From positions 682,001 through 746,000 of the forward strand of contig PNKZ01000002.1 in NCBI GenBank assembly GCA_013822735.1: a DNA stretch of 64,000 nt, written 5' to 3'. The notes below the pieces were generated by a model that had not been told where the DNA came from, made no database searches, and saw only the letters and a list, made by a program, of their open reading frames with translations. Source of the DNA: Pirellula sp. (GTDB taxonomy: Bacteria; Planctomycetota; Planctomycetia; Pirellulales; PNKZ01). How positions within the stretch are numbered: the stretch's first letter is position 1; the number at the start of each line of letters is the position of its first letter. This document shows positions 526 to 21,682 of the stretch, in pieces. Made by a program: the position numbers and the translations under genes.

Positions 526-1311
526 ATGAAGATCAACTTTGCCCTCGTCGTCGCCTTGTGCTTGGCTACATTTGCCGAGTTGCCTGCCGCGGAACCGGTT
601 AAGCCCAAGGCCGCCGTGGCTAAGCTGCCCGCGGTGCCCGCCGAGTCGATCGCCAAGAAGGCCGAGCTTCTCTTCTCCGACGACTTCCAAGCGGCGACGC
701 CTGCGAAGGAGTGGCATCGGGTCGTGCCGACGTTCGCCTTCGAAAACGGGGCGCTCAAAGGATCGCAAACGCGCGACGTGACCATCCCCGCCGCCGACGG
801 TAAGCCGGAAATCAGGGCCCATGCCGCCGTGCACGGCTTGGAGATTCCGACCAAAGACTGCGTCGTCGAATGTCGCATCAAGTTCGACGGCGCGACGATG
901 ATCGACGTCGAGTTTGACGATCGCAAATATACCGGCGCCCATTACGGACACCTTTGCCGCGCGCAGGTCCGTCTCAACGGCGTGACGATCATTGACGAAC
1001 GCGACGGCAACATGCGTAACGATATTCGCGAAATGCGCAACGACCCGACGAAGAAGGCCGAAGTCGCAAAGCTCCTCGTCGGTCGGCAGGTGACGTATCC
1101 GGCCAAGCTGGAGGCAGGTCGGTGGTATGTGTTGGTTGTCGAAACCGTCGGCGAAGAAATGCGCGTGACCATCGACGGCGCGCCCGCCGCCTATCTGAAA
1201 TCTTCCGGCATCGCCCACGCCACGAAGTCGAAGATCGAACTCGGCGTCGCCGGCAAAGACGGCTGGTTCGACGATGTGAAAGTGTGGAACGCGGCGCCGA
1301 TTAACCCGTAG
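526..1311 (+). CDS. Secreted LamG / 3-keto-disaccharide hydrolase-like protein
   Basis: 261 residues. ATG at 526 starts a clear signal peptide (MKINFALVVALCLATFAELPAAE); a TTG at 511 is possible but would add residues before it. After a Lys/Pro/Ala-rich linker, residues about 45-261 form a jelly-roll-type beta domain that opens with LFSDDF, a usual beginning of DUF1080/LamG-like domains in planctomycetes, and closes with GWFDDVKVWNA. An exported glycan-binding or glycan-acting protein is likely. I see no catalytic motif that fixes a reaction. Confidence 0.7.
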   Translation: MKINFALVVALCLATFAELPAAEPVKPKAAVAKLPAVPAESIAKKAELLFSDDFQAATPAKEWHRVVPTFAFENGALKGSQTRDVTIPAADGKPEIRAHAAVHGLEIPTKDCVVECRIKFDGATMIDVEFDDRKYTGAHYGHLCRAQVRLNGVTIIDERDGNMRNDIREMRNDPTKKAEVAKLLVGRQVTYPAKLEAGRWYVLVVETVGEEMRVTIDGAPAAYLKSSGIAHATKSKIELGVAGKDGWFDDVKVWNAAPINP

Positions 1312-1360
1312 TCGAGTGGCGTACCTAAACGCCGTGAATGCGGTCAGCCTGCCACGGAGT

Positions 1361-2203
1361 CTACCGAAACACGCCGGCGTCGTAAGCCGGCCAGAATTGC
1401 GCCGGCAGGCCTTTTTGTTCCATCGACGGGCCGATCTCTTGGCAGCGAGGCAAAGTTCGCGCCGCTTCGATGCCCGTGGTGATCTTGCCCGGCGTGAAGA
1501 CGAGTCGCGTCAGCGGCAGGCCGGCGATCGGCGTCAGATCGGTTACGTCGCAGCCCGCCATGTTCAACCGCTCCAGTTTCAAGAGCCGTCGCACGACGGC
1601 GATGCTCCGCACTTTCGTTCCTTCGATCGTCAGCGAGATGAGCGGCGAGCCGGCCAGCGATTCGATATCGTCGATCGGGGCGTTATTGAGCCAGAGTTCG
1701 TGCAGCGGAGCCCGTTGCAGCGGACCGATGTCGCGCACCTGCGTGTTCGACAGCCGCACTTCGCTGAGCGGCATCCCGTGCAACGGTCCGAGGTCGGCCA
1801 CCGGCGTGTCGTTGAGCGAAATCGCCGTGAGCTTCATCCCTCGGAGGGGTCGTAAGTCGGTGAGCGGGTTTTCTTCGGCGTAAAAAGCCCGCAGTGGTTG
1901 ACCGGTAAGAGGGCTGAGGTCGGTGACGCCCGTCGCTCTCAGATCGATCGCTAACAAAAGATCGTTTTCGAACTGCGCCTGCGCCTTGCCGTTGTAGTTC
2001 GGATTGGCGCTCTTCAGTGCCGCATGAAGCTCTTCGACATTGCGAATCGGCACGACCTTCGCTGCCGGTGTCGCCGCGGTCGCCGTTGCCTGCGCGGAAC
2101 CGGCGGGCGCTACGGGGGCCGATTTGTCACAGCCGCTCGTCAGCACAAAGCCCGGCAACGCAAGGCTCAGAACGATCCCCAGAGCAGGGCGGTACTCAAT
2201 CAC
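1361..2203 (-). CDS. Leucine-rich-repeat lipoprotein
   Basis: 280 residues. GTG at 2203 was chosen because GAGGAAG lies 7 bases upstream on the minus strand; an ATG at 2245 would put a long Arg-rich stretch ahead of the signal peptide. The N-terminus has a hydrophobic segment ending in the lipobox LTSGC, so a lipid-anchored protein is expected. From about residue 80 to 260 it carries irregular repeats of roughly 22 residues (LTDLRPLRGM, VADLGPLHGM, VRDIGPLQRA, IDDIESLAGS, VTDLTPIAGL), a leucine-rich solenoid common in planctomycete surface proteins and Ser/Thr kinases. It probably binds a protein or glycan; the partner is unknown. Confidence 0.75.
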   Translation of the reverse strand: MIEYRPALGIVLSLALPGFVLTSGCDKSAPVAPAGSAQATATAATPAAKVVPIRNVEELHAALKSANPNYNGKAQAQFENDLLLAIDLRATGVTDLSPLTGQPLRAFYAEENPLTDLRPLRGMKLTAISLNDTPVADLGPLHGMPLSEVRLSNTQVRDIGPLQRAPLHELWLNNAPIDDIESLAGSPLISLTIEGTKVRSIAVVRRLLKLERLNMAGCDVTDLTPIAGLPLTRLVFTPGKITTGIEAARTLPRCQEIGPSMEQKGLPAQFWPAYDAGVFR

Positions 2204-2693
2204 GCGATTGCTTCCTCGAAGGTTGGGACGAAATGTGCGGCGCACTCAATTCGAGGCCTACTGTAGTTGAGTTGACGACGGTTGTCAGCCTTCGGCGCGC
2301 CGAACATTGTGAAATCGTGTGCGCGTAAAGTGCACATGCATCCCGGCTTACGCTTCGGCCGACGACGGACCGCGACCTGCCGGCACGGTTGCTGCATTAA
2401 CCATCTGCGGCGAAACGATCGACGCGACGTCGGAACTTTCGCCGCACCAGACAATTTGGGACTGGGGGTCGAATTTTGGCCCGGACCCCTCTGCCATCGG
2501 TCCTCAGTCCCATTTTCCTAATCGGGCCTGCATCGTGCAAAGACGACGCAGGACTTACCGCGAGCTCGGCGACGGTCCAGAGTTGCCGAGCTCGAAAAGC
2601 TTCGCGCGCTGCAGGTCGGGTGGCTGGGGCAGCATGCCCCAGGGTTTGGAAGGCATAAACTCCGGGGCATCGCTAAGTCCTGCCCCAGCCACC
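2204..2693. other. Intergenic region with compound hairpins
   Basis: 490 bases between two minus-strand genes. I see no convincing coding frame. The right half (2561-2694) holds two nested or adjacent inverted repeats, listed separately. The left part should contain the promoter of the lipoprotein gene, but I see no clear -35/-10 pair. Confidence 0.5.
2561..2594. repeat. Inverted repeat, 10-bp arms
   Basis: CGAGCTCGGC (2561-2570) and GCCGAGCTCG (2585-2594) are exact reverse complements around a 14-base loop. No T-run follows, so it is not a standard terminator. Confidence 0.6.
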
Positions 2694-8317: not shown

Positions 8318-8476
8318 TGACCGGTGGAATCCACACGGAAAGGAAAAGTCATATCGTGTGCGCTCGATGCGAACCGTGGTTCTCATTCTCCGTGGGCTGC
8401 TCGCTATGGACAAGCGCCCCCGAATCGAAAATCATGAGTGGTGAGAATGTTTTACCGTCCCAAGCCGAGATGCTCC

Positions 8477-11400
8477 ATGAAGTTGCGAATGCGAATGACG
8501 CCGTTTGTCGTTGCTGCCTGGATCTGCACGGCGGGATTGTCGGCAAACGCGCAAGCGGCGGGACCGGGGCCGCTTTCGTTCAATCGCGACATTCGCCCGA
8601 TCCTCTCCGAGAATTGTTTCGCCTGCCACGGCTTCGATGCAAAAAAACGGGAAGCGGAACTACGGCTCGACACCTCCGAAGGAGCGTTCGCCCCGCGCGA
8701 GAGCGGGCCTGCCATTGTGCCGGGCAAGCCCGAGGCAAGCGAAGTGTGGCAGCGGATCGTGTCGGACGATCCCGACGTGATGATGCCGCCGCCGGCTTCG
8801 CACAAGGTGCTCAAGCCGGAAGAGAAGGCGCTGCTGAAACGCTGGATCGCCGAAGGGGCCGCGTATCAAAAGCATTGGGCGTTTGAGAGGCCCGTAGCTG
8901 CGGCACCGCCCGCGGTGCGTGATGCCGCGTGGTGCCGGACGCCCGTCGATCGGTTTATCTTGGCCCGCTTGGAAGCCGAGGGTTTGCAGCCGAGGCCCGA
9001 GGCGGATCGCCCGACGCTCATTCGTCGCGTCGCGTTTGCGCTGACCGGCCTGCCGCCGACGGTTGCCGAGGTCGACGCATTCCTCGCGGATAAGTCGGCC
9101 GACGCGTACGAGCGGATGGTCGATCGCTATCTGGCTTCGCCGTGCTATGGCGAAGAGATGGCCCGGCATTGGCTCGATGTGGCCCGTTATGCAGACACGC
9201 ACGGCTTGCATCTCGACAACGAACGGGAGATGTACGCCTATCGCGATTGGGTCGTAAAGGCGATGAACGACAACTTGCCGTTCGATCAGTTTACGATTTG
9301 GCAACTGGCGGGCGATCAACTGCCTAATGCGACGCTGGAGCAACGGACGGCGACCGGCTTCAACCGGTGCAACGTGACGACGAGCGAGGGAGGTTCCATC
9401 GCGGCGGAGTTTCTCTACCGCTATGCCGTCGATCGGGCCGGCACGACGATGCAGACCTGGATGGGGCTGACCGGCGGGTGCGCGGTTTGCCACGATCACA
9501 AGTACGATCCGCTGACGACGAAGGAGTTCTACTCGTTCTACAGCTTCTTCTACGACGCGGCCGATCCGGCGATGGACGGCAACATCAACAACACCGCGCC
9601 GTTTCTAAAGCTGCCGACTTCGGCACAGCAGCAAGCGCTCGACGCCGCTGCGAAGCGAAAGGCCGAAACCGCAAAATGGTTGGAAGCGTCGGCCAAGGGA
9701 AGTAGCTACGTCGATCCGGCCGACGTGGAGCCGACCGCAGCGAAGGCGAGCGCTGTGGAGGCGAGTGTATTGGAAGTGCATGATATTGTCTTCGACGACG
9801 CGTTCGCGCCGGGCGCAACCGCGCGCAATACGTCGCGGAACGCGAGCCGCTGGCCGGCGGATCCCGCGTTCGGCGCGAAGTCGGGGCGTCGCGTGCTGGA
9901 GCAGGCCAATGCCCGGTTTCATCAAGACATTATCACTTGTCAGTTGCGGCCGCTCTTCGTGCCGAACGACGGGAGCTTCGAAGTTTGGGTTCGCACCGAT
10001 CCGCAGAACCCGCCGACCGCGCTTTCGATTCTGCTCGACTCGAAGCGCGCCTGGTGGGGCGAACCGGAAGACGTCGAAGGGGGCATTCCGGGCCTCACGC
10101 CGGAATCGCGTAGAGGGGGCCTGCCGAAGCCGGGAGAATGGACGAAACTCACGCTCTCTGCCGCCGATCTCGGCCTGAAGCCCGGCGCCCATGTGAAGAC
10201 GGTGACTCTCCAAGAGTCGGGCGGCGTCGCATGGTGGGACGAATTCGTAATGCGCGGCAAGGTCGACGCGAAACTCGCGGCGGCCGATCCGCTGGAGTCG
10301 TTCACGGCGTGGCGTCAGATCGTCGACAAGGGCGCGCCGGAATTGCCGGCCCGATTTCAGAAGTACTTTCAGCAGCCGCCGCCACGACGGCCGAAACCGA
10401 AAGCCGAAGACGCCAAAGAATCGAAGCCGTTGCCGGAACCTTCTGACGCCGAGCTGATCGAACTGCGCGACTTTTATATGGCCTACGCATATCGCCGGCC
10501 GACGAAAGCCGTGCAAGCTGCGCGCGGCGCATGGGAGACGGCTCGTGTGGAGCATGCTACGGCGGATGACGCGATCGTCGGTACGATGACGTTTGCCGAC
10601 GTTGAGCAGCCGCGCGAAGCGTTCGTGATGCTCCGCGGGCAATACGACCAGCCAGGCGAGAAGGTAGAACCCGCGGTACCGGCCGTGTTTCCGCCATTGG
10701 CGAGGAAGTCCCCAGCAGATCGCTTAAAGCGGCTGGACTTAGCTCGCTGGCTCGTGTCGCCGGAGCAACCTGTTACGGCGCGGATTCAAGTGAATCGACT
10801 CTGGCAACAGTTTTTCGGCGTCGGCTTGGTGAAGACGAGCGCCGACTTCGGTTCGCAAGGAGAGCCGCCGAGCCATCCGGAATTGCTGGATACGTTGGCC
10901 GTCGAGTTTCAGAAGAACGGTTGGGACACGAAGCGGTTGGTTCGCGAACTCGTTGCTTCGGCGACGTTTCGCCAGGAGGCGACCGTGACGCCGGATCTTT
11001 ACACTCGCGATCCGGAAAATCGCCTGTATGCTCGCGGCCCGCGATTTCGACTCGATGCGGAACAAATTCGCGACAACGTGCTCTACGTCGCCGGCCTGCT
11101 CGACTTGCAGATGGGAGGCGCCGGCGTGAAGACGTATCAGCCGCCAAATATCTGGGAGCCGGTCGGTTACTCCGACAGCAACACGCGTTATTACCTGCAA
11201 GATCACGGTGACGCGCTTTATCGACGGAGCATCTATGCATTTCTCAAACGCACGGCGCCGCCGCCGTTCATGTCGAACTTCGACGGGCCGAACCGCGAAC
11301 AGATGTGCGCTCGCCGTGAGCGGAGCAATACGCCGTTGCAGGCCTTGCAACTGATGAACGACGTGCAGCACTTCGAAGCGGCTCGGGCGCTAGCGGAACG

Positions 11401-11677
11401 AGCCTTGGCCGACGGCGGGACGAGCGACGAAACCCGCATTGCGTTCCTTTATCGCACGGTACTTGCTCGCGCCCCGGAGGCTGACGAAGTGAAACTCGTG
11501 CGTTCGGCGCTCGAAAAGCAACGGCAACTCTACGCCGACGAACCGAAAGCCGCGACCGCCGCAATTGCCTTTGGTGAATCGAAGCCGAAGCACATTGCCG
11601 CAGATGCCGAAACCGCCGCGTGGACGATGACGGCCAATTTGATTCTCAATCTCGATGAAACGGTCAATAGGAACTGA
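8477..11677 (+). CDS. PSCyt1-DUF1549-DUF1553 protein with heme-like CXXCH motif
   Basis: 1066 residues from ATG at 8477, chosen because it opens a signal peptide (MKLRMRMTPFVVAAWICTAG...AQAA); an in-frame ATG at 8447 is an alternative. Order: PSCyt1 domain with C47-F-A-C50-H51 in NRDIRPILSENCFACHG; DUF1549 at about 150-340 (RHWLDVARYADTHG; TGCAVCHDHKYDP adds a second CXXCH); a jelly-roll-like insertion about 430-590 (FEVWVRTDPQNP, GEWTKLTLSA); then DUF1553 from about 740 (RLDLARWLV, NRLWQQFFG, LYRRSIYAFLKRT, NFDGPNREQMCARRE). Exported; function unproven, suspected in polysaccharide metabolism. It is paired with a DUF1501 gene. Confidence 0.93.
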   Translation: MKLRMRMTPFVVAAWICTAGLSANAQAAGPGPLSFNRDIRPILSENCFACHGFDAKKREAELRLDTSEGAFAPRESGPAIVPGKPEASEVWQRIVSDDPDVMMPPPASHKVLKPEEKALLKRWIAEGAAYQKHWAFERPVAAAPPAVRDAAWCRTPVDRFILARLEAEGLQPRPEADRPTLIRRVAFALTGLPPTVAEVDAFLADKSADAYERMVDRYLASPCYGEEMARHWLDVARYADTHGLHLDNEREMYAYRDWVVKAMNDNLPFDQFTIWQLAGDQLPNATLEQRTATGFNRCNVTTSEGGSIAAEFLYRYAVDRAGTTMQTWMGLTGGCAVCHDHKYDPLTTKEFYSFYSFFYDAADPAMDGNINNTAPFLKLPTSAQQQALDAAAKRKAETAKWLEASAKGSSYVDPADVEPTAAKASAVEASVLEVHDIVFDDAFAPGATARNTSRNASRWPADPAFGAKSGRRVLEQANARFHQDIITCQLRPLFVPNDGSFEVWVRTDPQNPPTALSILLDSKRAWWGEPEDVEGGIPGLTPESRRGGLPKPGEWTKLTLSAADLGLKPGAHVKTVTLQESGGVAWWDEFVMRGKVDAKLAAADPLESFTAWRQIVDKGAPELPARFQKYFQQPPPRRPKPKAEDAKESKPLPEPSDAELIELRDFYMAYAYRRPTKAVQAARGAWETARVEHATADDAIVGTMTFADVEQPREAFVMLRGQYDQPGEKVEPAVPAVFPPLARKSPADRLKRLDLARWLVSPEQPVTARIQVNRLWQQFFGVGLVKTSADFGSQGEPPSHPELLDTLAVEFQKNGWDTKRLVRELVASATFRQEATVTPDLYTRDPENRLYARGPRFRLDAEQIRDNVLYVAGLLDLQMGGAGVKTYQPPNIWEPVGYSDSNTRYYLQDHGDALYRRSIYAFLKRTAPPPFMSNFDGPNREQMCARRERSNTPLQALQLMNDVQHFEAARALAERALADGGTSDETRIAFLYRTVLARAPEADEVKLVRSALEKQRQLYADEPKAATAAIAFGESKPKHIAADAETAAWTMTANLILNLDETVNRN

Positions 11678-11790: not shown

Positions 11791-13278
<1,488 letters not shown>

Positions 13279-13296: not shown

Positions 13297-14571
13297 ATGG
13301 CCCACGTCGTGGAAGATATTGCCTGCACGGTCTGCGGTTGCGTTTGCGACGATCTGCGCGCAACGGTCGACGCCGGACTTATCACCGCGATGGAGCCGCA
13401 TTGCCCGCTGCATGCGGCCTGGTTTGCGAAGCACAATATTGCGGCGCCCATGGTGCAGGCGACTATCTCCGGGAAGCCGGCGGCCGTGGATGTTGCGGCT
13501 GCGGCTGCGGCGAAAATTCTGCGCGAAGCACGGCAGCCCATGATCTACGGGCTTTCGCGCAGCAGCACGCCGGGGCAACGGGCCGCGGTACGCCTGGCGG
13601 ATAAAATCGGTGCGATCATCGACACGACGGCGTCGAGTTGTCACGGCAACTCGATCGTGGCGCTGCAAACGGTCGGTGAATCGACCTGCACACTCGGCGA
13701 AGTTCGGAATCGATGTGATCTCGTGATCTACTGGGGGGCGAATCCGGCCGTCAGCCATCCGCGGCACATGGAGCGATATTCGCTGGAGCCGCACGGACAA
13801 TTTGTGCCTGAAGGGCGAGCCGGACGGAAGTTGGTCGTTTTCGATATTCAAGAGAATGCCACGACGGAGGCTGCCGACGATTTTGTGCGCATTCGACCTT
13901 CGAGCGATTTCGAAGTGCTCTGGGCGTTGCGAGCGCTGGTACTGGGCGTGCCGCTTCGGGTGGCGGAAGTGGGGGGAGTGCCGGTGACGAAGCTCGCTGC
14001 CCTCGCGGAGCAGATGAAGTCGTGTCGCTCCGGCGTATTTTTCTTTGGTCGCGGCTTGTCGCTCGGTCGCAACGGCCACGCCGGCGTCGAGGCCTTGCTG
14101 CAACTGACGCGCGATCTCAACGCCCATACCCGATTTTATGCCCGACGAATGCGCATTTACGGCGACGTGGCCGGGGCCGACAGCGTGCTGGCTTGGCAAA
14201 CCGGCTACCCGTTTAGCGTGAACTTGGCCCGCGGTTATCCTCGCTACAACCCCGGCGAATACTCGGCCGAGCAATGTTTGATTCGGGGAGAAGTCGACGC
14301 CTGCCTGCTCGTCGGCAGCGACGGCCTCAACGTCCTTTCGCCGCAGGCACGCGAACGCCTCACGCACATTCCGACGATCGCCCTAGACTACCCCGGCGCG
14401 GACCATATTACCGCCGACGTGCAATTCACCACGGCCATCTACGGCATGCACCGCGCAGGTACCGCGTACCGCATGGATGAAGTGCCGATCCCCCTGCGCG
14501 CCGTCGTCGATTCGCCGCTCCCGAGCGATGCCGACGTGCTCGATCAGATTCTAACGGCGTTCGGCACGTAG
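13297..14571 (+). CDS. fhcB: Formylmethanofuran dehydrogenase subunit B
   Basis: 424 residues. This is the molybdopterin/tungstopterin-type subunit of the formyltransferase/hydrolase complex (FwdB/FmdB/FhcB). Visible features are the N-terminal [4Fe-4S] cysteines C10-x2-C13-x3-C17 (CTVCGCVCDD), a further Cys in EPHCPLH, and C115 in SSCHGNS, at the place of the metal-ligating Cys/Sec. In planctomycetes and methylotrophs the complex acts at the formate end of tetrahydromethanopterin-linked C1 transfer. Only subunit B is here; subunits A, C and D are not in the window. It sits 18 bp after DUF1501 on the same strand, an unusual neighbour. Confidence 0.88.
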   Translation: MAHVVEDIACTVCGCVCDDLRATVDAGLITAMEPHCPLHAAWFAKHNIAAPMVQATISGKPAAVDVAAAAAAKILREARQPMIYGLSRSSTPGQRAAVRLADKIGAIIDTTASSCHGNSIVALQTVGESTCTLGEVRNRCDLVIYWGANPAVSHPRHMERYSLEPHGQFVPEGRAGRKLVVFDIQENATTEAADDFVRIRPSSDFEVLWALRALVLGVPLRVAEVGGVPVTKLAALAEQMKSCRSGVFFFGRGLSLGRNGHAGVEALLQLTRDLNAHTRFYARRMRIYGDVAGADSVLAWQTGYPFSVNLARGYPRYNPGEYSAEQCLIRGEVDACLLVGSDGLNVLSPQARERLTHIPTIALDYPGADHITADVQFTTAIYGMHRAGTAYRMDEVPIPLRAVVDSPLPSDADVLDQILTAFGT

Positions 14572-14592: not shown

Positions 14593-15564
14593 TTAGCGAA
14601 TGTTCTTCCGTTCCGCCGGCTTCGAGACGTTGCCGCGGGCATCGGTCGCCGTCGCTTGAATCACCAGCTTGGCCTTGTTCTTCACGACGGGGAAGTCGTC
14701 GAACACGAGCGTGAGTTCGTAATTAGACTGGCCGCGCTGGAAGCGCCCCGGCTCGGCGCTCACGTGATTGACCAGTTGTTGATCGAGAATCTTCGTGCCG
14801 TCTTTTGCCGGGGTGAAGGCTCGATTCCATTCGTTTAAATCGTACGAACGCTTGGCGACTTGTTTGCCGTCGTCGAGCATCACGACGTCGACGCGCAGCA
14901 AATCCATCTCATCGCCGGGCACGGTCGTCGTCACGGCGATAGTGGTGTGGTCGCGTACCACGGCGACGCTGTCGATCGTGATGTTCGGCGGACCGGAGTC
15001 GGCATAGGGAAGCATGCCGAGCGGATGTATGCAGAAACGCTGCGGACTGCCGCCGTCGCGAACTTCAAAGCGGAAGATCTCAAAGTCGCGCGGGCTGCGT
15101 CCCGATTTCCCGACGACGTCTCCCTTCGCCACCATCTGGCCGACCGTCAGGCTCGTCTCTCCCATGTTCATGTAGTTGGTGTAGTAATACTCCTTCGAGT
15201 CGGCCTTCTTATGGCGCAATTGCACGAGCGGCTTTTGGTACGCCTCGTGCTTCCCGGCGACGCGCACTTCACCGTCGGCCACGGCATGAATGGGCGTTCC
15301 TTCCTGGCAGGAGATTTCGATGCCGCGATTGAAGTCGTGACGAAACCCGTCGACGGAGAGTTGCCGCGGGCCGAATGTGCCGGTGTAGGGAGCGTCGGGC
15401 TTCGTGCTCCCGCTGATCGGCCAAATGATTCCTTCGGCGAAAGGCCCGATGGTCACGGGCTCGACCTTGGTCGATTGGTCCTGGGCGTGCGTGACGGAGC
15501 AAGCAAGCAGAACGACAAGACACGGCAAGTATGCGATTGTCGCCGTCAAGACAAAGCGGAGCAT
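14593..15564 (-). CDS. Secreted LytM/M23-fold protein with degenerate zinc site
   Basis: 323 residues from ATG at 15564, which opens a signal peptide ending in THAQD. Residues about 45-185 follow the M23 (LytM) pattern: DFNRGIEISCQEGTPIHAVADGEV, VGQMVAKGDVVGKSGRS, FRFEVRDGGSPQ. The usual ligands of FHxGiD and LHFEVR are replaced: Asn79 for His, Glu83 for Asp and Arg165 for the last His, while YYTNY has Asn where YxHL is expected. A peptidase activity is therefore unlikely. As with EnvC/NlpD, known catalytically dead LytM proteins, a role as an envelope activator is conceivable. The C-terminal half is Ig-like. It follows the vWFA gene by 80 bp. Confidence 0.8.
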   Translation of the reverse strand: MLRFVLTATIAYLPCLVVLLACSVTHAQDQSTKVEPVTIGPFAEGIIWPISGSTKPDAPYTGTFGPRQLSVDGFRHDFNRGIEISCQEGTPIHAVADGEVRVAGKHEAYQKPLVQLRHKKADSKEYYYTNYMNMGETSLTVGQMVAKGDVVGKSGRSPRDFEIFRFEVRDGGSPQRFCIHPLGMLPYADSGPPNITIDSVAVVRDHTTIAVTTTVPGDEMDLLRVDVVMLDDGKQVAKRSYDLNEWNRAFTPAKDGTKILDQQLVNHVSAEPGRFQRGQSNYELTLVFDDFPVVKNKAKLVIQATATDARGNVSKPAERKNIR

Positions 15565-15644
15565 GATGAAACTCACGGTGTGGTGCCGGATCAGTAAAAC
15601 GCGGGCGTGCGTTTCGCTGCTGGCTACGAAGGCGTCGTCGCGAT

Positions 15645-17294
15645 TCAGCTCTCGATCCACTTCCAACCGATCGGAGCCGATAATTCTTGCTGCGCGGCCG
15701 AGGCCCAGGGAGTACCGGGATGTTCTTTAATGACTCGATCGAGATACTCGCGAGACTTTTTCGCCATGTTGTCGAGGACGCTGTTTTTCTCGATGCCGTC
15801 GGCTTGTTCGAGCCGCCACAGGCGCGTATCGGGCTTCGTCGATTTGCGACCGGATTTAAACGCGGCCAGGAGCACAACGTAGCCTTCGGTGCGAACTTTA
15901 GCGGCCATGATGCGTCCCATGGCGAGATCGAAGGCGGCCTGATGACGCGGCTCGGTGAGCTTCGGGCGGTCCTTTTCGCCTTCCTTGAGCACATCGTAGA
16001 TCGCGTCGATACCCGGCTTGATCAACGCTTGCGGTCGCTGTGCCTTGTCGATGTCGATCGTTTTCGGACTGCCTGCTTCATCCACTTCAAACGACATTTC
16101 CGGGCCGGATATCTGTTTGGCTGCCGGCAGCTTCGAAGCGGCGACGAGCGCGGCGAGTGCTTTGTTGCTCGCGAGCAGCGCTTGGTAGTCTTTTTCCGAG
16201 AGATAGCGCGGCGCGTATTGCGGAGCCAACTGCATGCCGCCGCCGAGCGTCGTCACCGGATAGACCTCGCCTCCTGATTCGCGGCAGATCGCCGTGAGGC
16301 CGTAGGGTCCTAGATTGGTTTCTTGCGATCCCATCATCATCGGGCCGAACCCGCCGTCGAGCGAAATCCACTCGACGTCGTGCGATTCGGGACCTTGCGC
16401 GAATTGGCTTCCTTCGGTCCCGGCTGCCATGGTACCGGTGGTGCCGAACGGCGCGGCGGAGCAGATCACGTATACCGGAATCGTCGCTTTTTGCACGAGG
16501 TCGGTAACGCGATCGCGCTCGGCTTGGTCGTCGCCGATTTCGTCCGTGACGACGACGATCGCAACGTTGCGCAATTGCGGAGGCTCGGCGTAAGTGCCGT
16601 ACTTTTTCACGGCTGCGTCGATCGCTTGAAACGTGTTTTCAATGTTACCGTCGGTACCGCTTTTGACCTCGCTCACCGCGTTGAGAAACTTTTCGGTGTC
16701 GGCCGTCGGTTCGTCGGTGACGAATTGTGCTCGGGACGCAAATCCGCCGACGACGGAAAGCAAGCGCGCATTCGTCGGATCGGCGGCAGGCGCTTCGCCC
16801 GGGTTTTTAAGCAGCGGGTAGTAAGTCTTCAGATGTTGAAGCACTTCTTCGCGCCGGCCGTCGGCGCTAGGAGAGCGATCAAAGAGCCACACGACCAGCG
16901 TCTTGCGAAGCTCCATCGATTCCTTGAGCTTCTTGCAAACGCGGGCCGTGGCGATGTCGGCATTGACCATGCCTGCCATTTCCGCCATGGCGAAAGGATC
17001 GGCGTTGTTCGCGGCTGCGGGAATAGTCGTCGTGGTAGATTTCGCGCCCGTGGCCTGCGCCTGAGGGACCGAAGTCATCGTGCTTGCGGCAGGCGTGGGC
17101 GTGTTGGAATGACGCGGTGCAGAATACGCGGGAGGAAGTTCAACGACCTCCGGCGTCTCCTTGGGTTTCGTCAGCACAAATTTGTAGACCGCAAATCCCA
17201 GCGCCGGGAGCGCCAGAAGCGTGACGACCGCCAGCACGACGGGGGTGTAATCTTTCTTCTTGCGCATCGGGCGGCGCTGATGTCCGTAACTCAT
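15645..17294 (-). CDS. Membrane-anchored von Willebrand factor A domain protein
   Basis: 549 residues from ATG at 17294, with GGAG 11 bases upstream; ATG codons at 17363 and 17267 are alternatives. A Lys/Arg-rich N-terminus precedes one membrane helix (about 17-41), then a Pro/Thr/Ala-rich linker. The vWFA fold follows: the MIDAS motif D139-R-S-P-S in VVWLFDRSPS, a Thr in SGTDGNIENTF and an Asp in VVVTDEIGDD are all present, so a metal-dependent adhesion site looks intact. The C-terminal part (about 400-549) is helical. It faces the periplasm and probably works with the dead LytM protein encoded 80 bp downstream. Confidence 0.8.
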   Translation of the reverse strand: MSYGHQRRPMRKKKDYTPVVLAVVTLLALPALGFAVYKFVLTKPKETPEVVELPPAYSAPRHSNTPTPAASTMTSVPQAQATGAKSTTTTIPAAANNADPFAMAEMAGMVNADIATARVCKKLKESMELRKTLVVWLFDRSPSADGRREEVLQHLKTYYPLLKNPGEAPAADPTNARLLSVVGGFASRAQFVTDEPTADTEKFLNAVSEVKSGTDGNIENTFQAIDAAVKKYGTYAEPPQLRNVAIVVVTDEIGDDQAERDRVTDLVQKATIPVYVICSAAPFGTTGTMAAGTEGSQFAQGPESHDVEWISLDGGFGPMMMGSQETNLGPYGLTAICRESGGEVYPVTTLGGGMQLAPQYAPRYLSEKDYQALLASNKALAALVAASKLPAAKQISGPEMSFEVDEAGSPKTIDIDKAQRPQALIKPGIDAIYDVLKEGEKDRPKLTEPRHQAAFDLAMGRIMAAKVRTEGYVVLLAAFKSGRKSTKPDTRLWRLEQADGIEKNSVLDNMAKKSREYLDRVIKEHPGTPWASAAQQELSAPIGWKWIES

Positions 17295-17871
17295 CTCACA
17301 GGGCTCCGGCGATTTCCACGTATGCCTGTCTGTTCCGCAGCAGGCCGACGATGATTCTAACAATACGGCATTCTAGCAACCGGTGCCCGCAGCGCGAGGG
17401 GGCGACATTGGCGCGTAAGGAGGTGCAACTCACGTGACGTCGTGAAAGCGCGGCGCAAAAGAAAAGCCCGCCGCAGGCGGGGCAGGAACCTGCGGAGGGC
17501 GAAGTGGTCAGGGGTTTGAGCCCCCCTAACTTCTCATGATTTTGCTCCCGGCAAGCCTGCCGTCACAATCCCCCTGAAGAGTGGAGGGTGCATGGCGATA
17601 TGCAGCTGTTTTATGGCCGTTCCGAGCATTCAGACGAAGCTGGGCCGCCCCGTGCCAGTGACCGCTTGGAATAGGTTTGGTTGATCGGATACGACGAACC
17701 GAATAAGTTAGTACCGTTGCGCGTGACAATATAGCACGCGCTTCCCCGCCTTCTGCCGGTACTGCCCCCGCCCGATTTCCAAATTGCCCGCTTGTCCCCA
17801 ATGCAAGCGATGTGATTTCCCCGCCCGCCTCCTCGCCGCCCGACCATCCTGCCGTAGGTGTTTTGCCGCAT
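17295..17871. other. 577-bp divergent intergenic region
   Basis: Lies between the vWFA gene (minus) and the second DUF1549 gene (plus). There is no credible frame. It contains a minus-strand terminator-like hairpin at 17457-17481 although no gene can be seen just upstream of it on that strand, and a GC-rich stem at 17471-17495. It should also hold the two divergent promoters; I cannot point to either. Confidence 0.5.
17457..17481 (-). terminator. Terminator-like hairpin without an obvious gene
   Basis: On the minus strand a stem CCCGCC/GGCGGG (17467-17472 with 17476-17481, loop GCA) is followed by CTTTTCTTTT. A short strong stem plus T-run is typical of intrinsic termination. The transcript that would be terminated must start between 17482 and the coding region beyond 17872. 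Confidence 0.45.
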
Positions 17872-20214
17872 ATGGGTGAATCGCATTCTTTAGACATTCG
17901 TTCGCCTCGCTCCGGGCGGGCCTCAGCAAAGTCGATGTGTGGGGCTACCTTAGCCGCCCTGGCTTTGCTCTTCGGCGGCGGGTTGGCTTCCGCGGTCGAA
18001 AACATGACCGACGCGCCGTTGACCCCCTCGTCGCACGATCTCGATGTGGCGAAGCTGCCGTTGCTTCCGTCGCCGCCGAGAGCCGACGGCCATGAAGCGG
18101 TGAGCTTCTTGCGCGACGTGCAGCCTGCGCTTACCAAAGCCGGCTGCAATATGGGTTCTTGCCACGGCTCGCTGCAAGGGCGGGGCGGCTTGATGCTTTC
18201 CTTGCTCGGTTACGACGCCGCCAAGGATTACGACGCCCTCTTCAAGCATTCACGCGGCCGCCGCGTTGCGGCCACCGCCCCGGAACAAAGCTTGATCTTG
18301 CAAAAGGCCACTGGCGCGGTGCCGCACGGCGGCGGCATTCGTATTACGCGCGAGAGCGAATGCTACCGTGTGCTCGAACGTTTTATCGCCGAAGGATTCC
18401 TAGCGCCGGAAGCCGAGTTGGCGCGCTATGAGAAGCCTGCAACGGCGCTACCGGTGGTCACGAAGCTGAATGTAACGCCGGTCGAACTCGTGCTTGAGCC
18501 GGGCCAAGCCGCGAAGCTGCAAGTGCAGGCGGTCTGGAGCGACGGATCTATCCAAGAGATCACTCCTTGGGCGCTTTACGATGTGCGCGACAAACAACTT
18601 GCCGACGTCGGACGCTCGGGCACGGTATCCGCACTTCGCTCAGGTCGCGTACCGGTGACCGTGCGCTACATGGGCCAGGTCGCCGCTGTGGACGTAACGA
18701 TTCCCTACGGGCCGTCGCGCGAGTTGGCGGAGTTCGCACCACGTAACTACATCGACGAGATCGTCTTGCGCGAATGGCGCAAGCTGGGTTTGCAACCGGT
18801 CGAAACCTGCGACGATGCCGAGTTTATCCGCCGCACTTACTTTGACCTTATCGGCACGCTGCCGACCGTCGAAGAAGTGCGGGACTTCCTCGACGACGAC
18901 GCATCAGACAAGCGGTCGAAGCTTGTCGACGCGTTGTTAGAACGACCCGAGTACGTCGACTTTTGGTCGCTCAAGTGGAGCGATTTGCTGCGCGTGCATC
19001 GTCGCTATGTCGGCGAAAAAGGATTGGAAAGTTTCTCGGCTTGGATTCGTCGCGCGGTGCGCGAGAATCGGCCCGTCGACGTACTTGTCCGCGAGCTTCT
19101 GACGGCCCAGGGAAACCTCTACACGTCGGGCCCCGTCGCCTTCTACATGATCGATCAGAAGCCTGAGGAACTCGCCGAGACGACGTCGCAAGTATTTCTC
19201 GGCATTCGACTGCAGTGCACGAAGTGTCATCACCATCCGCTTGAAGTGTGGGGGCAAGAAGACTACTACGGTTTGGCCGCCTTCTTCACCAAGCTGGAGA
19301 TGAAAGACAACAAAGATGCCGGCCGCTACGGCGGGGCGCGGCTCGTGAAGGTGACGAGCACGCAGCCGAAGAATCGCAAGCTGGAGATGGACGCTCCGCC
19401 GCTGTTCTTCGATAAGCAGCTCGATCTGGAAGGGCAGGCCGACATTCGGCAATCGCTCGCCGACGCCGTGACCGCCCGCGATAATCCGTACTTTGCGCGG
19501 AACTTCGCCAACCGCTATTGGGCCTATCTCACGGGGCGCGGGTTGGTGGAACCGATCGACGACGTGCGGGCCACGAATCCGCCGTCGATTCCGCTGTTGC
19601 TCGATGCCCTGGCGCGCGATTTCACGGAGCACGGCTACGATGTGAAACACATGCTGCGGACGATCTGTAACTCGTCCGTCTATCAGCGGGCCTCGCGCGT
19701 TACGCCCGGCGAGCGTGAGAATTCGCAGTTTTACACGCACCGTGCGCCGCGGCGATTGCCGGCCGAGGCATTGCTCGATGCCGTGAATCGGGCCACGGGG
19801 GCCGCCGATATCTACGAAGGCATTCCCGAGGGAACGCGGGCCATCGCACTGCCCGACCCTAGCGTGAAGTCGTACTTCTTAGACTTGTTTGGCCGCCCGG
19901 CCCGCAACAGCGGATGCGAATGCGCCCGCGGCGGTATGCCCGACCTATCACAAGCACTGCACCTGGCGAACGGTACATTCTTACACGACAAGATCGTGCG
20001 CGAGCGTGGGCGCGTCGATCGATTGACTTCCGGCAAAACGACCCCGGATGCAATCATTGATGAACTGTACCTAGCGACCCTATCGCGTTTGCCTCGCGAC
20101 GACGAACGCGTCGCAGTGCGAGAGTTGGTGGCCACGGCGCCCAGTCCGAAGGAAGGCTATCAAGATCTGCTCTGGACGTTAATTAACTGCACCGAGTTCC
20201 AATTCAACCATTAG
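17872..20214 (+). CDS. DUF1549/DUF1553 protein with CX4CH motif and Ig-like domain
   Basis: 780 residues from ATG at 17872; the frame is open from 17812 and ATG 17935 is a third option. The chosen start gives Arg/Lys before the hydrophobic segment (ATLAALALLFGGGLASA). Order: a cytochrome-like domain with C92-NMGS-C97-H98, a CX4CH variant of the heme motif; a bacterial Ig-like (BIG2) domain at about 165-250 (LNVTPVELVLEPGQ, SDGSIQEITPWA); DUF1549 at about 260-440 (EFIRRTYFDLIGTLPT; LQCTKCHHHPLEVW adds CXXCH); DUF1553 at about 525-775 (NRYWAYLTGRGLVEPIDD). Exported. Forms a set with the next two genes. Confidence 0.92.
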   Translation: MGESHSLDIRSPRSGRASAKSMCGATLAALALLFGGGLASAVENMTDAPLTPSSHDLDVAKLPLLPSPPRADGHEAVSFLRDVQPALTKAGCNMGSCHGSLQGRGGLMLSLLGYDAAKDYDALFKHSRGRRVAATAPEQSLILQKATGAVPHGGGIRITRESECYRVLERFIAEGFLAPEAELARYEKPATALPVVTKLNVTPVELVLEPGQAAKLQVQAVWSDGSIQEITPWALYDVRDKQLADVGRSGTVSALRSGRVPVTVRYMGQVAAVDVTIPYGPSRELAEFAPRNYIDEIVLREWRKLGLQPVETCDDAEFIRRTYFDLIGTLPTVEEVRDFLDDDASDKRSKLVDALLERPEYVDFWSLKWSDLLRVHRRYVGEKGLESFSAWIRRAVRENRPVDVLVRELLTAQGNLYTSGPVAFYMIDQKPEELAETTSQVFLGIRLQCTKCHHHPLEVWGQEDYYGLAAFFTKLEMKDNKDAGRYGGARLVKVTSTQPKNRKLEMDAPPLFFDKQLDLEGQADIRQSLADAVTARDNPYFARNFANRYWAYLTGRGLVEPIDDVRATNPPSIPLLLDALARDFTEHGYDVKHMLRTICNSSVYQRASRVTPGERENSQFYTHRAPRRLPAEALLDAVNRATGAADIYEGIPEGTRAIALPDPSVKSYFLDLFGRPARNSGCECARGGMPDLSQALHLANGTFLHDKIVRERGRVDRLTSGKTTPDAIIDELYLATLSRLPRDDERVAVRELVATAPSPKEGYQDLLWTLINCTEFQFNH

Positions 20215-20236
20215 TACTGCCCCTTATCGCCGCTTC

Positions 20237-20274
20237 CCCTCGCCCCTTGCGGGAGAGGGGCCAGGGGTGAGGGG
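20237..20274. repeat. GC-rich inverted repeat
   Basis: CCCCTCGCCCCT (20237-20248) pairs with AGGGGTGAGGGG (20263-20274) with one mismatch; the loop is 14 bases. The sequence type (a run of CCCTCGCCCC then GGGAGAGGGG) is common as a dispersed palindrome in high-GC genomes. It lies between the DUF1549 and DUF1501 genes. Confidence 0.5.
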
Positions 20275-20320
20275 TGGATATCGTAAACTAAGTAGCCACG
20301 TCAACCGACGAGACCAGCAT

Positions 20321-21682
20321 ATGTTCAGCCTCTCTCACACGACGAGAAATTGCGAAGGTTTCCGCCGTCGCGACTTCCTCAAGGTCGGCGGTCTTTCGCT
20401 GTTTGGACTTACATTGCCGAAGCTCCTCGAAGCTCAAGCGATGGCCGCGGCCGCCGGAAAGCCCGGACGTACCAAGCCGAGCGAGATGAATTGCATCTTG
20501 CTCTGGACCGACGGCGGAATGAGCAATATCGACACGTTCGATATGAAGCCCGAGGCGCCGATCGAATACCGAGGCGACTTCCAATCGATCGATACGAACA
20601 TTCCGGGCGTCACGGTTTGTGAACATCTCCCGTTGATGTCGCAGCGGCTCGATAAGCTTTGCCAGGTGCGCACGATCACGCACGGCGGCGGCCAACATGC
20701 CGAAGCGTGTCATTTCATGCTCACCGGCTATCCGCAGGTTCCGGACGTCTCGGCACAGCCCGTCGGGTCGACGGTGTACCCGATGTTCGGCTCGATCGTC
20801 GGCCGCGAAAAGGGATGGCGCAACGGTCTCCCGCCGAACGTCCAGTTCGCCGCCGGCGGCATCAAGTACGGCGGCGCCGGCTACATGGGTTCGGCGTACA
20901 ACCCGCTCAGCGTCAAGGCCGATCCGAGCGCGAAAGGCTTCGCGGTGCAAGACGTTTCGATCCCGGAAGCAGTCGGAGCCGAGCGAACGATGCGTCGTCG
21001 CACGATGCTCAATCGGCTCGACGATTGGCAACGGCAAGCGGACGCCGATGCCAACGCCGGTGCGGCTTTCGATCGAAGCGTGTTCTATAAGCAAGCTTAC
21101 GATCTCATCACGTCCCCCGCGGCGAAGCGTGCCTTCCGCATCGAGGAAGAAAAGCCGGAATTGCGCGAGCGCTACGGCATGCATCGCGAAGGACAATCGA
21201 CGCTCTTAGCGCGGCGACTCGTCGAGTCCGGCTGTCGCTTCGTCACCGTAGAGTTCAACGGCTACGACACCCACGATAAAAACTTCATCGAACTGCGCGA
21301 TCCGCTGTTGCCGCGGCTCGATCGTGCGTGGTCGGCGCTGTTGGACGACTTGAGCGATCGCGGGATGTTGGACAACACGCTCGTGATTTGCGCCGGAGAA
21401 TTCGGCCGGACGCCGCGTGTGAACGGCGCCGCAGGGCGCGACCATTACCCGGGCGCGAACAACATTTGCTTGAGCGGCGCCGGAACCGCGATGGGGTCGA
21501 TCGTCGGACGTACCGACGCCAAGTGCGAACGACCGGTCGGACAGATCAACACGACGCTCGATTATGCGGCGACCATTTTCCGCATTCTTGGCATCGACGA
21601 CACGAAGGAATATCACGCGCTCGACGGCCGTCCGATTGCGATCAACAACGGCGGCAGCCCGATTGCGGGAGTGATCGCCTAA
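20321..21682 (+). CDS. DUF1501 family protein, Tat signal
   Basis: 453 residues from ATG at 20321; residues about 14-40 have a twin-arginine signal (FRRRDFLKVGG and a hydrophobic run). Sulfatase-like DUF1501 features: NCILLWTDGGMSNIDTFDMKP, RFVTVEFNGYDTHDKNF, VICAGEFGRTPRVNG and GRDHYPGANN. It lies 106 bp after the DUF1549 gene, and its TAA shares a base with the ATG of the PPC-domain gene, so the three are probably one operon. The substrate is unknown; a role in cell-surface or polysaccharide handling is inferred from context only. Confidence 0.93.
   Translation: MFSLSHTTRNCEGFRRRDFLKVGGLSLFGLTLPKLLEAQAMAAAAGKPGRTKPSEMNCILLWTDGGMSNIDTFDMKPEAPIEYRGDFQSIDTNIPGVTVCEHLPLMSQRLDKLCQVRTITHGGGQHAEACHFMLTGYPQVPDVSAQPVGSTVYPMFGSIVGREKGWRNGLPPNVQFAAGGIKYGGAGYMGSAYNPLSVKADPSAKGFAVQDVSIPEAVGAERTMRRRTMLNRLDDWQRQADADANAGAAFDRSVFYKQAYDLITSPAAKRAFRIEEEKPELRERYGMHREGQSTLLARRLVESGCRFVTVEFNGYDTHDKNFIELRDPLLPRLDRAWSALLDDLSDRGMLDNTLVICAGEFGRTPRVNGAAGRDHYPGANNICLSGAGTAMGSIVGRTDAKCERPVGQINTTLDYAATIFRILGIDDTKEYHALDGRPIAINNGGSPIAGVIA

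Follow-up and report, generated by a model that had tools for sequence, protein, structure and literature searches.

A formylmethanofuran dehydrogenase-family B subunit of Pirellula sp. that is probably a cluster-bearing scaffold without Mo/W

The gene investigated here is related to the B subunits of formylmethanofuran dehydrogenases and of the methylotroph Fhc complex. In M. wolfei FwdB, His290 lies near the metal (PMC11656701). The Fhc B of Methylorubrum has been described as a scaffold without Mo/W (PMC10100899). In Actinobacteria, a fwdDBA-ftr-fwdC operon encodes a B subunit with an Fe-S domain and a catalytic Cys (PMC7325909). For planctomycetes, a selenocysteine (Sec) fmdB was published in 2016, with Sec and Cys forms in one genome, as well as a D-B-A-C operon and Gly-containing homologues in three planctomycetes (PMC4807772). 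The Sec fmdB, the Sec and Cys copies within one genome, and the Gly homologues are thus already known and are not new here.

The window is a 64-kb stretch of DNA (C2:682001-746000) from a genome of 38 contigs that is 99.06 % complete (G000); with G001, G002, and G003 it represents one genus. Its B gene, at 13297-14571 on the forward strand, starts with ATG and encodes 424 aa. The protein scores 440.7 bits over residues 8-420 against TIGR03129, the NCBIfam equivalog model of the FwdB/FhcB family, which has a cut-off of 327.8, and archaeal FwdB chains align along its full length (8rja_B, E 3.4e-94; 5t5i_B, E 2.7e-88). By these scores, chance is excluded as the source of the family match. A Pfam search with the protein at E 0.001 gave no match. 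The features of the locus, where B2 denotes the lineage to which the window gene belongs and B1 the other planctomycete lineage, are as follows.

8438..11677, forward strand: PSCyt1-DUF1549-DUF1553 gene, upstream of the DUF1501 gene
11791..13278, forward strand: DUF1501 gene (PF07394; neighbour survey), directly upstream of B, gap 18 bp
13297..14571, forward strand: B2-type FwdB/FhcB-family subunit, 424 aa (TIGR03129, 8rja_B, B2 clade 100/100, predicted fold)
13324..13347, forward strand: codons 10-17, with Fe-S cysteines C10, C13, and C17
13402..13404, forward strand: fourth Fe-S cysteine, C36
13639..13641, forward strand: codon 115, TGT (Cys), at the metal-ligand position (alignment, codon read)
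14146..14166, forward strand: codons 284-290, RMRIYGD, the metal-site loop (alignment)
14593..15666, reverse strand: M23 peptidase gene, downstream of B and convergent with it

The sequence-only reading had reported a fhcB-type gene 18 bp behind a DUF1549-DUF1501 pair, with its Fe-S cysteines and C115 intact. The open reading frame, the family score, and the junction bear this out, and C10, C13, C17, C36, and C115 are all present. C115 stands in the context ASSCHGNS, with the adjacent H116 kept; by alignment, its position corresponds to C118 in M. wolfei and, in B1 relatives of the selenocysteine type, to the TGA codon. Against the G001 orthologue, dN/dS is approximately 0.12 (dN 0.139, dS 1.172, with dS near saturation); within the genus the ratio is about 0.12-0.20, again with dS near saturation.

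A structure of the window protein predicted from 72 sequences of the family, which include a few B1 or degenerate ones, has a pLDDT of 93.1 and replaced an earlier eight-sequence model that was too poor (pLDDT 63.0); the model is cofactor-free and comparisons with it rest on scores. It matches FwdB (5t61_H) with Z 52.0 and rmsd 1.7 over 420 aligned residues, and Methylorubrum FhcB (6s6y_B) with Z 35.4 over 343 residues, aligned only from model residue 54. The FwdB fold that the model appears to share does not show activity.

With archaeal FwdB/FmdB (5t61_H, 8rja_B), the window protein has 37-38 % identity and Z of about 52 over some 420 residues, as well as the N-terminal Fe-S cysteines and a Cys at the metal-ligand position. 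Unlike archaeal FwdB, which works with FwdD, it comes from a genome without a FwdD match and has its H290/N292 loop replaced. Like FhcB of Methylorubrum extorquens, it is likely to be the B of an A-B-C-D system with four subunits, in a bacterium that uses H4MPT chemistry, although here the A-B-C-D assembly is deduced from the genes, and by analogy it would also be without Mo/W. The Methylorubrum protein (6s6y_B, 361 aa) is without the Fe-S segment, whereas the window protein keeps this N-terminal part. The planctomycete Sec, Cys, and Gly fmdB genes are of the same family and the same phylum; unlike the Sec fmdB, the window gene has Cys, has no FwdD match in its genome, and falls in a separate clade. 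In the part of PMC4807772 available, copies are not sorted by FwdD or by the H290 loop.

Planctomycetes carry two B lineages, the FwdD-associated B1 and the window's clade, B2. In B1 the metal ligand is Cys or selenocysteine and the loop reads RGHGN, and FwdD is present in the same genome. A B over the cut-off was present in 20 of 30 genomes, the window's own among them. The sequence-only reading had suggested a phylogeny against other planctomycete copies; a tree of 45 B sequences, from which three fragments were omitted and in which long-branched degenerate B genes are placed unsurely, puts the window protein in a 16-member clade (support 100/100), which is B2. A Sec clade of eight (100/100) and the FwdD-bearing Cys-type genes lie apart from it. 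A draw across the phylum of 147 genomes, each at least 85 % complete, gave B in 15 (threshold E 1e-22), of which two, G098 and G145, stand outside the B typing. Among the 30 genomes, G025 was also left untyped, and G004 and G016 were typed from fragments. Genes for B without the ligand cysteine, in genomes with no strong FwdD match, were seen in G005, G006, G011-G013, G015, G018, G020, G021, G024, and G029, some of them on very long branches, as further erosion of the same subunit.

The best B of six relatives is a full-length gene with one in-frame TGA, aligned with C115 of the window protein (SHTSLUHGPTE). B1 genes with an in-frame TGA were also found as a fragment in G004 and as two genes in the phylum draw. 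The six relatives and G004 all belong to the 11 genomes, of the 30, that have a tRNA-Sec match of at least 62 bits, and ARAGORN confirmed tRNA-Sec in both genomes checked, G026 and G008. Selenocysteine in the window protein was considered and rejected, as codon 115 is TGT and the best tRNA-Sec match of G000 (48.2 bits, gathering score 47) is tRNA-Ser by ARAGORN.

Several B1 genes are preceded by small genes (111-124 aa) whose products match PF01568 and archaeal FwdD structures. FwdD, a domain of about 112 aa, is the separate part (domain IV) that completes the Mo/W-bisPGD pocket. In the MopB family, domain IV is needed to hold bisPGD. With a profile built from five of these small genes, FwdD was found at E 1e-10 or better in 12 of the 30 genomes (G004, G007, G008, G009, G010, G014, G016, G017, G019, G026, G027, and G028), the match lying within a fusion in G007 (2.8e-18) and being a piece at a contig edge in G008 (4.5e-11). 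Eleven weaker matches, inside frames of 341-1044 aa, were discounted as domain IV of other enzymes. The profile search gave no match at E <= 0.001 in the four genomes of the window's genus (G000-G003), a result that a highly diverged FwdD could escape. Five of the 147 genomes of the phylum draw have FwdD at E 1e-10 (G066, G106, G114, G132, and G159), and they own the five highest-scoring B genes of that draw. The same 12 and five genomes were scored as B1 holders, G004 and G016 by fragments and G007 by its fusion; in G106, FwdD and B1 are on different contigs. Planctomycetes have been stated in print, in the available part of PMC5020050, to lack fwdD; the planctomycete genomes searched here contradict this.

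A B with the B1 N-terminus stands alongside FwdD in 38 of 42 FwdD loci and a B2-type gene in none of the 42. Among the 38, the ligand was read as Cys or Sec in 36 and the loop as RGHGNV in 33, the rest being cut off or unread. The search pattern found no B in the remaining four loci, one of which is that of G007, with FwdD fused to B. Six of the 36 FwdD matches from the search of 50 B2 genomes described below gave no locus and are outside this count. Seen from the other side, FwdD lies within 8 kb of B2 in two of 79 B2 loci, L205 and L207, each with a second B gene. The G007 fusion (L306, G007:C2:401500-404600, positions 708-2477, reverse strand) is one 589-aa frame in which RGYSN replaces RGHGN. 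A gene that we take, from the look of its sequence, to be like tungsten aldehyde oxidoreductase lies near FwdD/B1 in L155 (10870-12663, reverse strand; G017) and in the flank of L264.

The metal site itself has been rewritten in B2. Named genomes were scanned and, of 398 confirmed relatives, the best 80 loci were taken, so the counts describe the nearest ones; the 80 comprise 79 B2 loci and one B1 locus (L264), giving 80 B2 rows with the window. All four Fe-S cysteines are present in 79 of the 80 B2 rows, the remaining row (L250) being cut at the N-terminus, and with L264 included they are present in the 80 N-terminally complete rows of the 81 examined. The ligand position is Cys in 52 B2 rows, Gly in 27, and Arg in one. 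The equivalent of M. wolfei His290 is His in none of the 80; the single His at this position in the scan belongs to L264, the B1 gene with FwdD beside it. In the window, the loop RMRIYGD stands where archaeal FwdB has PMRGHxN (M. wolfei 286-292), with G289, H290, and N292 changed to I287, Y288, and D290, so that these catalytic loop residues are absent. Of 85 columns that are invariant in 14 B1 and two archaeal sequences, scored over 87 B2 sequences, 47 are kept in at least 95 %, 20 in 50-95 %, and 18 in fewer than half. Nine are kept in fewer than 5 %, including P286, G289, H290, and N292. Five residues are fixed in B2 and unseen in those 14 B1 and two archaeal rows.

In a tree of the 87 B2 and three B1 sequences, the ligand position needs nine changes between Cys and non-Cys by parsimony, at least five of them forced by supported branches; the alternatives are Gly, Ser, or Arg. 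Of 50 B2 genomes, comprising all 28 non-Cys genomes of the scan and 22 of those with Cys, 36 gave a FwdD match: 18 of 22 with Cys and 18 of 28 without (Fisher p 0.215; completeness of these genomes not given). The idea that Cys retention tracks FwdD is therefore unsupported. Since non-Cys B2 genes occur alongside FwdD and the window gene has Cys without a detected FwdD, the cysteine is a weaker sign of catalysis. The intact residues had led the sequence-only reading to call the protein functional in appearance; as regards catalysis this goes too far, given that FwdD is unmatched in G000-G003, the loop is rewritten, and the C115 position has changed at least five times.

No A, C, or D gene over the cut-offs lies inside the 64-kb window, and to this extent the earlier description of the B gene as an orphan stands. 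It does not extend to the genome, which has one A (C22:53288-54913), one C (C14:51493-52290), and two D-family genes (C9:181627-182484 and C10:185072-185953) over the cut-offs, as well as mch (C10:68548-69477). The search for fhcA, fhcC, fhcD, and methanopterin genes that had been suggested thus found all three, and mch, and of the two explanations offered, that the complex genes are scattered is the one that agrees with these positions. A genome-wide search found no second B over the TIGR03129 cut-off in G000. The window gene is the only one, so that the alternative of a divergent second copy beside a complete set with its own B does not apply. The Fhc gene set A, B, C, and D is accordingly all in one genome, on C22, C2, C14, and C9.

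The A of G000 aligns full-length with FwdA (8rja_A, E 1.4e-152; also 5t5i_A), the intactness of its metal-ligand positions being judged by eye from the 8rja_A/5t5i_A alignment. The C9 copy of D matches solved formyltransferases (1m5s_A, E 9.6e-82). The C10 gene is a second, lower-scoring FhcD/Ftr paralogue (approximately 292-316 bits), of a kind seen in 12 of the 29 other genomes. In G002 the only strong fhcA match (C8:23132-24594) is split into two segments that lie in different reading frames, and nothing aligns with model positions 247-307, which looks like a frameshift or a misassembly.

The flanks of the 79 B2 loci, many of them shortened and about 1.0 Mb in total with L264, were surveyed for the partner genes, L264 as a B1 locus being dropped from the counts. 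They contain C in eight, A in six, a MobA-like gene in five, and D in one, against a chance expectation, by our estimate, of approximately 0.16 for a gene present once per genome at a genome size of about 6.5 Mb. L205 also carries a second B beside FwdD, and its A and C may belong to that B. In the complete chromosome of Adhaeretor mobilis (L244), a Cys-type B2 is grouped with A, C, and D inside 7 kb, and the search for FwdD gave no match. MobA is a kind of gene that makes MGD; genes presumed, from the look of their sequence, to be MobA-like lie near A and C in the C1 gene islands of L205, L209, L242, L244, L256, and L155 (6283-6972). Three genomes (G009, G017, and G027) combine a single A and a single C over the cut-off with FwdD and with both B1 and B2. 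With one A and one C for both B types, both may use the same core.

The DUF1501 gene is a partly conserved neighbour. The PSD1-DUF1501-B order recurs in the congeners G001 and G003, and the M23 gene is also 3' of B in G001; in G002, of the same genus, no DUF1501 was found in the vicinity of B. Besides the window, DUF1501 lies directly upstream of B2, on the same strand and within about 250 bp, in seven of 79 B2 loci by manual count (a narrower scripted filter gave six). In a DUF1501 tree of 27 rows, a biased sample of the window and fetched loci nearly all from around B genes, the copies upstream of B in L208, L210, L212, and L221 group together in a clade close to the window's copy, and that of L226 is placed elsewhere. 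A functional partnership of DUF1501 with B was considered and is weak on these figures; the shared order argues against a mis-join and is no proof of a functional link. A second PSD1/DUF1501 pair lies at 17812-21682 of the window, its DUF1501 distant from the copy beside B.

The explanation that fits these data best, and the one we consider probable, is that the window protein is a cluster-bearing scaffold, probably free of Mo/W, in a complex of the formyltransferase/hydrolase type. It is supported by the unmatched FwdD in the genus and the FwdD loci whose neighbours are B1 and never B2, by the loss of His290 and other invariant columns with a labile ligand position, by a full-length A, a D that matches formyltransferases, and the presence of mch, by the B2 genes near C (8/79) and A (6/79) and the Adhaeretor mobilis island without FwdD, and by the precedent of the Methylorubrum B subunit without Mo/W (PMC10100899, in the part available). 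Cys in 52 of 80 B2 rows counts against it, as C115 is not freely lost, and so do the kept Fe-S cysteines, a fold closer to FwdB (Z 52.0) than to FhcB (Z 35.4), the passing of the TIGR03129 equivalog cut-off, the MobA-like gene near A, C, and B2 in five of 79 loci, the slightly commoner FwdD in Cys-type B2 genomes, and the two B2 loci with FwdD within 8 kb, where there is also a second B. A competing explanation is a Mo/W formylmethanofuran dehydrogenase B that works with its active site altered and has a diverged protein, an unrelated one, or none in the place of FwdD; C115, H116, and the Fe-S cysteines are kept, the fold is predicted to be that of FwdB, the gene is under purifying selection, the equivalog cut-off is passed, and a MobA-like gene is a neighbour in five of 79 B2 loci. 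We regard this as unlikely, since FwdD is unmatched in four genomes of the genus, the equivalents of P286, G289, H290, and N292 are replaced, and the ligand position has changed repeatedly in a clade whose non-Cys members occur in FwdD-bearing genomes.

It is also rather improbable that B2 has left the formyl pathway to serve another partner, such as an electron-transfer or assembly protein. The scattered gene, the genomes that already have B1 beside A and C, and the seven other B2 loci with DUF1501 directly upstream could be read in this way; however, the genome has A, C, and D and no B over the cut-off other than the window's, and no DUF1501 was found near B in G002. The service to another partner proposed in the sequence-only reading is unsupported, as there are one A and one C to serve and the B2 genes of some relatives are near A and C. 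A decaying copy without function is very unlikely: although the active site is eroded and the B genes of other lineages in the order are much more degenerate, the frame is full-length, dN/dS is about 0.12-0.20 (with dS near saturation), the Fe-S cysteines are kept, and B2 has its five fixed residues of its own. An isolated gene of a complex might, finally, be an assembly artefact, a mis-join behind DUF1501, and the sequence-only reading had named a mis-join, to be shown by a contig break upstream, as a possible undoing of its own case; the same gene order in G001 and G003 makes this extremely improbable.

Under the scaffold explanation, the window protein would fold like FwdB and hold a [4Fe-4S] cluster, and would carry no working Mo/W-bisPGD site. 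It would be the structural subunit linking A to C. Transfer of the formyl group from formyl-H4MPT to methanofuran would be the task of D, and A would hydrolyse formyl-methanofuran to formate, which the window protein would not oxidise. A further idea, which is possible but doubtful, is that B2 is an alternative B module on one shared A/C core; it draws on G009, G017, and G027, with their single A and C and both B types. If true, B1 with FwdD on this core would be a formyl dehydrogenase that oxidises formate to CO2, and B2 on the same core a formyl hydrolase that releases formate, its [4Fe-4S] cluster being structural or redox-sensing. The window's genus would then retain the hydrolase module alone.

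We found no planctomycete B lineage described as cluster-bearing and lacking FwdD in the open-licence literature, as far as its texts were available and with subscription papers outside its scope. The family model alone would name the window gene formylmethanofuran dehydrogenase and so imply that the cell makes or fixes CO2 at this step. There are at least two planctomycete lineages of this subunit, and FwdD together with the RGHGN loop separates them better than the cysteines do. B2 resembles an intermediate between FwdB, which is catalytic, and the reduced FhcB found in methylotrophs: its cofactor partner has been lost or is unused, and its Fe-S cysteines are kept.
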